Source: an uncultured Ruminococcus sp. (GTDB taxonomy: Bacteria; Bacillota; Clostridia; Oscillospirales; Acutalibacteraceae). Taken from it: 64,000 nt of DNA. Of the stretch, positions 21,622 to 23,886 are shown piece after piece (position 1 is the stretch's first letter; every line of letters begins with the position of its first letter). The notes below the pieces were generated by a model. The model was not told the origin of the DNA. It saw only the letters and a list, made by a program, of their open reading frames with translations, and did no database searches. The DNA lies in NCBI GenBank assembly GCA_905233145.1, contig CAJODI010000001.1, positions 1 to 64,000 on the forward strand. Reading direction: 5' to 3'. A program made the position numbers and the translations under genes.

Positions 21622-21720
21622 GTGCCTGTGGGCACTCTTGTCAGCCTATTAGAACAACTCCGGTAACGATAACCGTGTTCAACGGCGGGAATAAGCAATT
21701 TCCTTGTATAAAGTAAAAAA
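21622..21720. repeat. Interspersed repeat, family B
   Basis: GTGCCTGTGGGCACTCTTGTCAGCCTATTAGAACAACTCCGGTAACGATAACCGTGTTCAACGGCGGGAATAAGCAATTTCCTTGTATAAAGTAAAAAA. Confidence 0.7.
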
Positions 21721-21828
21721 GACCGCCACGTGTTAGCGACAGCCCTAATAATATTATTATACCACTTTTTTGGGGCAGGTTCAAGACAATTTCGTAAAAT
21801 AAAAATATAAATATTTTTAATAAAAGTA

Positions 21829-21857
21829 TTGACAATGTTAAAATTTAAGTGTATAAT
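21829..21857 (+). promoter_or_regulatory. Consensus sigma-A promoter
   Basis: TTGACA (21829-21834), 17-nt spacer, TATAAT (21852-21857). Confidence 0.9.
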
Positions 21858-21896
21858 ATAGACAAAGATAAGAGATAAGACAAGGAGGTTTTCAAA

Positions 21897-22001
21897 ATGA
21901 AAATTATGAAACCTTTAAACTACAGAATTATGAGCTTTATTAGGAGTTTACCCCCTAACAGCTTAAACCCAATTCATTTAGCAGGGGTTGAAGCTAACTA
22001 G
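21897..22001 (+). CDS. Possible 34-aa small protein/leader peptide MKIMKPLNYRIMSFIRSLPPNSLNPIHLAGVEAN
   Basis: ATG preceded by AAGGAGGTT Shine-Dalgarno, downstream of consensus promoter; too short for the ORF track. Confidence 0.5.
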   Translation: MKIMKPLNYRIMSFIRSLPPNSLNPIHLAGVEAN

Positions 22002-22527
22002 TTTGTGTCGGAACGACTGATCTGTTTTTAGTGTTTTTGAAACACCGTTTTATAATTAGTTTTTTGGTCAAGTAATAGCGTTCCGAAAGTTTCCGGCAAT
22101 TTCTCGATACGACAACAATTCGGATGTGTTGCCCGACAAATTGCATCGTCTCAAAAAGTGAATGTTGATCATTTGCTATTTGATATTGGGAAAACAGATT
22201 TTTTACATATATGACAAGTTAATATTTGAAATAACTACATGGTGGTTAGACCAATGAGAAGTTTAATTTTTGATCGTTAAGATTTGTTTACTTATAATTG
22301 TACGTTTTAATATCTCATTACAATAACAGTTTACGGAGAACAGTCCAATGTGCACTTAATCTTTTTCTGAAATATTTTTAAATTCTATGGTTCGATTTCA
22401 AACATCCTAAATGTACATCTATAATTGTTATTCACGCAACAACCCAAACGGAGATGAGTCCAAAGTACAAGTTATTTTGATTTAAAACCTATAGGTATTA
22501 ACAAGATTTAAATTTCTATTTGTCCTT

Positions 22528-22560
22528 AAAGAGGTGATCGGCGTTCGGTCACCTCTTTTT
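22528..22560 (+). terminator. Strong intrinsic terminator
   Basis: AAAGAGGTGATCG-GCGTT-CGGTCACCTCTTTTT, about 13-bp stem with one G-U. Confidence 0.93.
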
Positions 22561-22698
22561 GCTGTATAAGAAACTGCGCAACGCAGCCGATTTGCTTACC
22601 GTTCAAAAAACTCTTGCAGACATATTAATTTAGTGGTAAAATAAAGGAAACCTGTAAAACACATACACTTATTTTAATTATGTAAAGGATGACTGAAT

Positions 22699-23886
22699 AT
22701 GGAATATAAGTTTTCTGACAGGGTTTCCGGTTTGAAGCCCAGCGCAATCAGAGAGATTTTTAAATATGCTGCCGACCCTGAGGTCGTTTCGCTTTCGGCA
22801 GGCAACCCCTCTCCCGATGCCTTTCCGGCAAAGGAGATCGCCGAAATTTCTGCAAAGGTGCTTTCCGAAAATCCGATTTCGGTTTTGCAATACAGCGTAA
22901 CAGAAGGCTATTCTCCGCTTAGGAATCATCTTCGTGAATACATGAAAAAAGAGCACAATACCGGCTGCGAAAACGATGATATTTTGATTACCACAGGCGC
23001 TCAGCAGATTATGGATCTCTGCACAAAAGCTCTTGTCAACGAGGGTGATGTTGTAATTTGCGAAGCTCCGTCCTTTATCGGCTCACTCAACACCTTCCGC
23101 AGTTACAACGCAAGGCTGGTAGGTGTTACAGTTGAACCTGACGGTATGAACACCGACGAGCTTGAGCAGGCGCTTAAAGACAATCCGAATGCAAAGCTTA
23201 TCTATACTATCCCGAATTTTCAGAATCCGTCGGGCGTTACAATGAGCCTTGAAAAAAGAAAGAAAGTTTATGAGCTTGCGCAAAAATACGGCGTGCTTAT
23301 CATTGAGGACAATCCCTACGGTGACCTGCGCTACAGTGGTGAAAACCTGCCGAACATCAAGAGCTTTGACGACGGCTCAACCGTTATCTATGCAGGTTCA
23401 TTTTCAAAGGTCATCTCGCCGGGAATGAGAGTTGCCTACACGATCTGCCCCAAGCCGATTTTTCAAAAGCTGGTGGTTTGCAAGCAAGGCAACGATGTTC
23501 ACACCAACATTTGGTCACAGTATGTTTGCGACGAGTTCATCACCAAATATGACTTTAACGCCCATCTTGCAAGGCTCAGAGAAATCTACACCAAAAAAGC
23601 GGATTTTTGCATGAAGCTCCTCGACAAATACTGCGCTCCGGCTATAACCTACAACAGAATTGACGGCGGTTTGTTCATTTGGTGCGACCTGCCTGAAAGC
23701 ATTAACATGCCCGAGTTTTGCAAAACCGCAGTGCTCAACAAGGTCTGCGTCGTACCGGGCAACGCGTTTTTGACAGACGAAAGCCTTCCCTGCAACAGCT
23801 TCCGCATCAATTTTTCAACGCCGACAGACGAACAGCTTGAAAAGGGAATCAAAATTCTGGGCGAATTGGCAAATAAATTAGTTTGA
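22699..23886 (+). CDS. PLP-dependent class I/II aminotransferase (2-aminoadipate aminotransferase/MocR-catalytic-like)
   Basis: 395 aa; YIIPNFQNPSG-like IYTIPNFQNPSGVTMS, EDNPYGDLRYSGE, GSFSKVISPGMRVAY. Confidence 0.93.
   Translation: MEYKFSDRVSGLKPSAIREIFKYAADPEVVSLSAGNPSPDAFPAKEIAEISAKVLSENPISVLQYSVTEGYSPLRNHLREYMKKEHNTGCENDDILITTGAQQIMDLCTKALVNEGDVVICEAPSFIGSLNTFRSYNARLVGVTVEPDGMNTDELEQALKDNPNAKLIYTIPNFQNPSGVTMSLEKRKKVYELAQKYGVLIIEDNPYGDLRYSGENLPNIKSFDDGSTVIYAGSFSKVISPGMRVAYTICPKPIFQKLVVCKQGNDVHTNIWSQYVCDEFITKYDFNAHLARLREIYTKKADFCMKLLDKYCAPAITYNRIDGGLFIWCDLPESINMPEFCKTAVLNKVCVVPGNAFLTDESLPCNSFRINFSTPTDEQLEKGIKILGELANKLV

Follow-up and report, generated by a model that had tools for sequence, protein, structure and literature searches.

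Between lepA on the minus strand and an aminotransferase gene on the plus strand (22699), the window analyzed here (64,000 nt from an uncultured Ruminococcus sp., positions 1 to 64,000 of contig CAJODI010000001.1) contains an unannotated transcription unit of about 700 nt, and the question it raises is what kind of gene this is and what its product might do. The original prediction left the choice between a large structured ncRNA and an mRNA for a small protein with a long structured 3' UTR. Our comparisons indicate that the stretch is almost certainly a real, evolutionarily conserved RNA gene, and that most of its carriers are relatives of the gut bacterium Ruminococcus bromii. As both the ORF and the RNA are conserved, the either/or framing proved wrong, while the idea of a novel structured RNA with a small protein held. 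The supposed 3' UTR is indeed structured, but its 3' part is largely an array of ribosome-binding site/micro-ORF modules, repeated at 22241, 22335, and 22450, which the original prediction did not contain.

Organization of the locus

The unit (21829-22563, plus strand) is present in a single copy in the source genome and consists of a promoter, an AAGGAGG sequence, a 34-codon ORF, a structured RNA of about 500 nt, and a terminator, with the following features:

21790-21857, plus strand: AT-rich upstream element and promoter (TTGACA 21829-21834, 17-nt spacer, TATAAT 21852-21857)
21882-21888, plus strand: Shine-Dalgarno (SD) sequence AAGGAGG of the leader ORF, SD:anti-SD duplex -12.4 kcal/mol
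21897-22001, plus strand: 34-codon leader ORF MKIMKPLNYRIMSFIRSLPPNSLNPIHLAGVEAN, an RSLPPN ORF as in all 30 loci found by blastn
21942-21959, plus strand: invariant RS(L/F)PPN codons, with an internal SD-like AGGAG/CGGAG and the pausing motif PPN
21960-21995, plus strand: hairpin just 3' of the PPN codons (AAACCC 21965-21970 / GGGGTT 21984-21989)
22008-22086, plus strand: structured domain I, covarying (stems 22009-22015/22079-22085, 22016-22022/22068-22074, and 22031-22036/22040-22045)
22095-22145, plus strand: structured domain II, covarying (stem GCAATTT 22096-22102 / AAATTGC 22138-22144)
22212-22228, plus strand: conserved linear motif, here ACAAGTTAATATTTG, consensus ACAATTTAATAT
22241-22280, plus strand: module 1, GGTGGTTAGACCA and ATG at 22254, micro-ORF MRSLIFDR with its stop at 22278-22280
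22335-22359, plus strand: module 2, GGAGAACAGTCCA and ATG at 22348, micro-ORF ATG TGC ACT TAA (MCT)
22450-22480, plus strand: module 3, the last, GGAGATGAGTCCA and AAG at 22463, a conserved variant without a start codon
22528-22563, plus strand: intrinsic terminator, 13-nt arms 22528-22540/22546-22558 (12 pairs) and a T run

These signals agree closely with what had been predicted. The sigma-70-type promoter matches the consensus at 12 of 12 positions and is also conserved in relatives, the strong SD stands ahead of the 34-codon ORF, and no plus-strand ORF longer than 34 codons occurs between 22002 and the terminator; only the 13-bp terminator stem needs amending, as 12 of its 13 positions pair. 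In many copies the leader SD is able to pair with early codons of the ORF (GGUUUU/AAAACC). The same type of promoter precedes tRNA and 5S rRNA genes in the genus (L115-L118), so the array RNA is likely to be highly expressed, as predicted from its promoter type. A minus-strand promoter (TTGAAC-17-TATAAT, 21784-21756) lies upstream of lepA and is followed within about 10 nt by a terminator-like hairpin (21746-21719, minus strand), possibly marking a short transcript or an attenuator; similar sequence is present at 21719-21784 in the 87% identical relative.

Homologs within the genus

Rfam 15 (including tmRNA, 6S, RNase P, T-box, OLE, ROOL, GOLLD, and raiA) gave no match at gathering score to the element in the window, and relaxing the threshold to E<=10 yielded no convincing candidate, in line with the original statement that no RNA family could be recognized; nor did it match the element in copies from any of the sequence types, the second genus, or the other family described below. 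The literature and databases that we searched contained no description of such an RNA. In phage and plasmid collections, nothing was found beyond a weak match to the promoter stretch, and the lone pattern match on a viral contig (L300) lies inside a long reading frame and was dismissed as chance.

Homologs were found by blastn in the same genus, as anticipated, with matches in 93 of 161 genomes, the best of which is 87% identical across 759 nt. Many of these matches are to the promoter alone; those elsewhere in the genomes were discarded because they represent strong promoters of a generic kind, belonging to tRNA, 5S, and other genes, rather than copies of the element, and one promoter-only match led to the discovery of type C below. 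A small RSLPPN ORF follows the same SD in 30 of 30 fetched loci. A pattern consisting of the SD, ATG, and RS(L/F)PPN codons matched 78 of the 161 genomes (41 of 81 high-quality ones), with one copy per genome in all but two, and the resulting set contains 69 distinct copies. When one genome per GTDB species was scanned, 67 records of the R. bromii clade or closely similar to it matched; three matches outside the clade (Paenibacillus, Anaerolineae, and Methanomassiliicoccus) are presumed, judging from the organisms only, to be due to chance. Named carriers are R. bromii ATCC 27255, 5AMG, and YE282, and Ruminococcaceae bacterium P7. The element is not universal in the genus, since two scans, which miss divergent copies, both failed to detect a module cluster in the complete genome G001.

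We distinguish three sequence types in the genus (A, B, and C), all of which share 2-9 copies of the module. The copy of R. bromii ATCC 27255 (L091) belongs to type A. Type C, found in six genomes, has an unrelated leader ORF (MIES...) and 5-9 modules, and adjoins a gene that reads as uracil-DNA glycosylase. Neighboring genes differ between types, and downstream genes are often convergent. Type A elements most commonly have an XRE regulator gene upstream (25 of 51) and a convergent phosphoglucomutase gene as neighbors. This 82-aa XRE-type helix-turn-helix protein is unusually strongly conserved for a small regulator, being 100% identical over 81 residues in the source genome (L301, G000:C17:6258-6500), where it is unlinked to the element; we therefore did not treat it as a partner. 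Recent expansion of the array is indicated in some type A copies (L010 and L049) by additional internal units of about 100 nt.

The leader peptide

The leader ORF is about 20-35 codons long across copies, and its core, ...IKD(F/Y)xRSLPPN, is conserved through synonymous codon changes. The leaders of type A (MKVK...IKDF(I/L)RSLPPN with a variable tail) and type B (MLQRPYRISIKDLKRS(L/F)PPN, with a stop immediately or nearly so) are two relatives of one peptide. RSLPPN itself belonged to the search pattern for the 69 copies, a bias from which the 30 loci found by blastn are free. Outside the searched pattern, an Ile at -5 is present in all 69 copies, encoded by ATT in 38 and ATC in 31, and the codon of the conserved Asp varies between GAT and GAC. 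In type A, divergence at codon positions 1, 2, and 3 is 0.30, 0.40, and 0.53 respectively, and upstream of the searched pattern 47% of the single-base codon differences are synonymous. Neither Pfam nor NCBIfam contains a match to the leader peptides.

A hairpin follows the PPN codons in 33 of 68 copies, moderately above the 20% obtained with shuffled sequences. In E. coli, PPN turned up exclusively among those PPX motifs that pause ribosomes, in a study that also considered upstream SD-like sequence (PMC4140641). The leader resembles PPX arrest and leader peptides in its PPN, upstream internal SD, and downstream hairpin, which have been reported, or would be expected, to slow ribosomes (PMC4140641), but differs from them in having no regulated downstream gene attached.

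Covarying domains

When folded alone, the whole unit is no more stable than shuffled sequences (z = -0.5), so only comparison can judge its structure. RNAalifold on 17 sequences recovers the outer stems of domain I unaided. Across 16 distinct sequences, 94.7% of the cells in the three domain I stems (CGGAACG/CGTTCCG, 22016-22022/22068-22074, and GTGTTT/AAACAC) are paired and 8 of 19 pairs have changed on both sides, compared with 25-44% paired when the partners were slid by 1-3 columns; relatedness inflates such covariation counts, and the slid-column controls retain it. The domain II stem at 22096-22144 is 98.3% paired, with double changes at four of its six pairs, and its GCAATTT/AAATTGC is replaced by CAGTCT/AGACTG, CAGCCT/AGGCTG, CAACCT/AGGTTG, and others. 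Most of the stems originally listed thus covary, strongly so in both domains. The exception is AATGAG 22253-22258/CTCATT 22314-22319, which is not conserved even in the 87% identical relative (L002/L082); its AATGAG is part of the first SD/AUG module. Further downstream, the linear motif ACAATTTAATAT is common to type A, the second genus, and genus g141 (family f7 too), with different surrounding sequence.

The module array

Every complete copy carries the module repeats. In each module, a small GG(A/U)-loop-(U/A)CC hairpin carries an SD-like GGAG/GAGG, usually with an AUG at a fixed distance from it, and in most cases the reading frame opened by this AUG ends at a stop within 1-6 codons. Preferred hairpin loops are GANNAG in types A and B and UAYRG in type C. 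The variable pair of the hairpin covaries, with 166 of 232 unique modules able to pair (mean of shuffles 116, maximum 142). With the modules aligned at their AUGs and no indels allowed in the spacer, the purine tract keeps its position (-13 to -9) even where the hairpin loop changes length. The modules have an SD:anti-SD energy of -6.5 kcal/mol (compared with -6.9 for the window's long ORFs and -2.0 for all ATG), a value favored by the extraction procedure, which required GG and CC and hence SD-like sequence. Adjacent modules are at least 46 nt apart, and the median spacing falls at 54-58 nt whatever the type; the footprint of an initiating ribosome is roughly 40 nt.

The start codons are tied to stops. 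Among 182 ATG modules of types A and B, an in-frame stop occurs within three codons in 71% (38% and 4% in the other frames) and within seven codons in 94% (51% and 34%). AUG modules alternate with AUG-less copies in some types, and type C provides an internal control: within the same RNAs, 22 of 24 AUG modules have a stop within three codons, vs. 1 of 17 AUG-less modules. Part of the stop signal is nevertheless a conserved sequence motif, since frame-0 stops tend to follow the type A modules with AAG as well (13 of 26 within three codons). Typical micro-ORF products are M, MW, MR, MYN, MF, and MI. In the window, two of the three modules have an AUG, one micro-ORF being eight codons long, and the last has AAG instead, likewise in other type A copies.

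Distribution beyond the genus

A pattern requiring two modules led to a second genus of the family (g25), all six genomes of which carry the array. Here the array starts right after the promoter, and micro-ORFs occupying the same place read MRI*, MRIS*, MRS*, MRK*, and MR*; other micro-ORFs of this genus are MGM*, MGSLF*, and MGDSV*. A stop is retained throughout, as TAA, TGA, or TAG, while its position shifts. A conserved peptide of about 28 aa, M(S/C/G)ELEPA..GICH, comes after the array (L304, L305, and L307-L313), and the RNA has a different 3' domain with a conserved 3' motif CCGATGGTTTGCGGTGGTATAAATTCG. 6S RNA adjoins two of these copies (L304 and L305) without overlap.

In genus g141 of another family, four of five sampled genomes carry two such matches each, with micro-ORFs MR*, MYEVITA*, and MF* and the shared motif ACAATTTAATAT. 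These loci (L316-L321) represent a GC-rich relative whose modules, in two clusters, lie about 480 nt apart, and show one GTG start (GTGAAGCAGTTTTAA) and a motif GACAATTTAATATGG. Two loci in a third family (f20), each a match in a single genome, look similar; the array is probably present there as well, and only probably because in controls about 1-2% of genomes match the two-module pattern by chance. The pattern is also strict, missing the window itself, and it matched none of 146 genomes of the class (140 of them outside the order).

Possible function and alternative explanations

The anatomy of the array RNA is well supported by these sequence comparisons. Its modules are probably translated or bound by ribosomes. 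The lack of a recurrent same-strand downstream gene argues for a trans-acting RNA, and we consider the chances about even that this is a stand-alone, strongly promoted, trans-acting RNA with ribosome-engaging parts. In such a model, the PPN of the leader ORF would make ribosomes pause, and several 30S/70S particles would load onto the array, start, and then stop at once, so that the RNA would tie up, or report on, initiating ribosomes; alternatively, the effect could be depletion of tRNA as peptidyl-tRNA in the style of phage minigenes. The small GG..CC hairpins may gate the ribosome sites and could equally be protein sites. Also weighing against the model are the patchy occurrence of the array, the stops that accompany type A AAG modules, the bias of module extraction, and the window's total of just two AUG modules, one of them with an eight-codon micro-ORF. 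The specific role as a sink or sensor of initiating ribosomes is put forward tentatively, as falling short of an even chance.

One of the closest parallels is the bar minigenes of phage lambda, which share with the modules an SD, an AUG, one or two codons, and a stop. According to work cited in PMC8012679, minigenes of this SD-AUG-short-ORF form inhibit translation through peptidyl-tRNA, and those of lambda bar tie up tRNA and ribosomes. The modules have this form at the sequence level, with the difference that here a dedicated RNA gene, chromosomal and conserved, combines an array of 2-9 sites with a leader peptide.

Foremost among the rival explanations is a protein sponge, in which the GG(A)-loop-(U)CC hairpins would titrate an RNA-binding protein as CsrB/C does CsrA, the AUGs and stops being by-products. 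We regard this as unlikely. CsrB/CsrC decoys likewise carry many short repeated hairpins with a purine GGA on one non-coding, apparently trans-acting transcript, and the preferred loops, the covarying inner pair, and the last type A module, which retains the motif without an AUG, would all fit a sponge. However, the linkage of start and stop in type C, the fixed SD-AUG register despite the variable loop, and the stops kept at shifting positions are not expected of one. A Csr sponge in particular was rejected because CsrA (PF02599) is absent from the source genome (G000) and 14 other genomes of the genus, while the same search found it in two genomes of other families and in control genomes; moreover, GGA lies here in the stem, with GG pairing to CC, instead of in hairpin loops, and unlike in the decoys, start and stop codons are tied to the hairpins and a conserved ORF is present. 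Dual-function sRNAs of the SgrS/SgrT, RNAIII, and SR1 type combine a small protein and a structured regulatory RNA in one transcript, and the conserved small ORF within this structured RNA is a clear likeness. Under this explanation, which is less likely still, the small protein would be functional and the untranslated SD-like repeats, complementary to CU-rich sequence, would pair with targets, for instance CU-rich sRNAs or the 16S anti-SD, which would be titrated. It leaves the start/stop coupling unexplained, and unrelated leader peptides (MIES... in type C, MSELEPA..GICH in the second genus) accompany the same array; unlike the known examples, the peptide here is of the arrest-motif type, has no known homolog, and is joined to a micro-ORF array.

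The position of the aminotransferase gene at 22699 on the same strand, together with the attenuator-like look of a leader peptide and terminator, might suggest a cis-acting leader of that gene. This is very improbable, given that the terminator is strong and that relatives have other genes downstream, most of them convergent (for type A phosphoglucomutase, for type C uracil-DNA glycosylase); the fixed class of same-strand downstream gene typical of leaders, riboswitches, and T-boxes was not found. Patchy presence and several genomic positions would suit a mobile-element remnant or passenger, or a type III toxin-antitoxin RNA, which we consider the most far-fetched of these explanations: the element is single-copy with stable synteny within type A, no phage or plasmid sequence matches it beyond the promoter stretch, and the modules are divergent rather than near-identical tandem repeats, with no recurrent toxin gene adjoining them.

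Implications

Extended to all the lineages above, the ribosome-engaging reading would make this an order-level RNA class, present in the R. bromii clade, a second genus, and at least one other family, in which a chain of micro-ORFs, initiated and terminated on, sets or senses free ribosomes; we offer this as a possibility to which we give less than even weight. We infer that micro-ORFs spaced at or above the ribosome footprint would dock several ribosomes, with a conserved peptide heading or following the chain. Whatever the mechanism, the locus represents a conserved RNA family that combines covarying structure with a new conserved small protein and occurs in abundant bacteria of gut and rumen, and because the family is undescribed, a ribosome-profiling signal on the array RNA could readily be misread. 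If the proposed role is true, a major gut order would have an RNA dedicated to engaging ribosomes instead of yielding protein, which would constitute a new way of controlling translation and would provide a large natural set of start-stop ORFs for studies of initiation, peptidyl-tRNA drop-off, and EF-P-dependent pausing.
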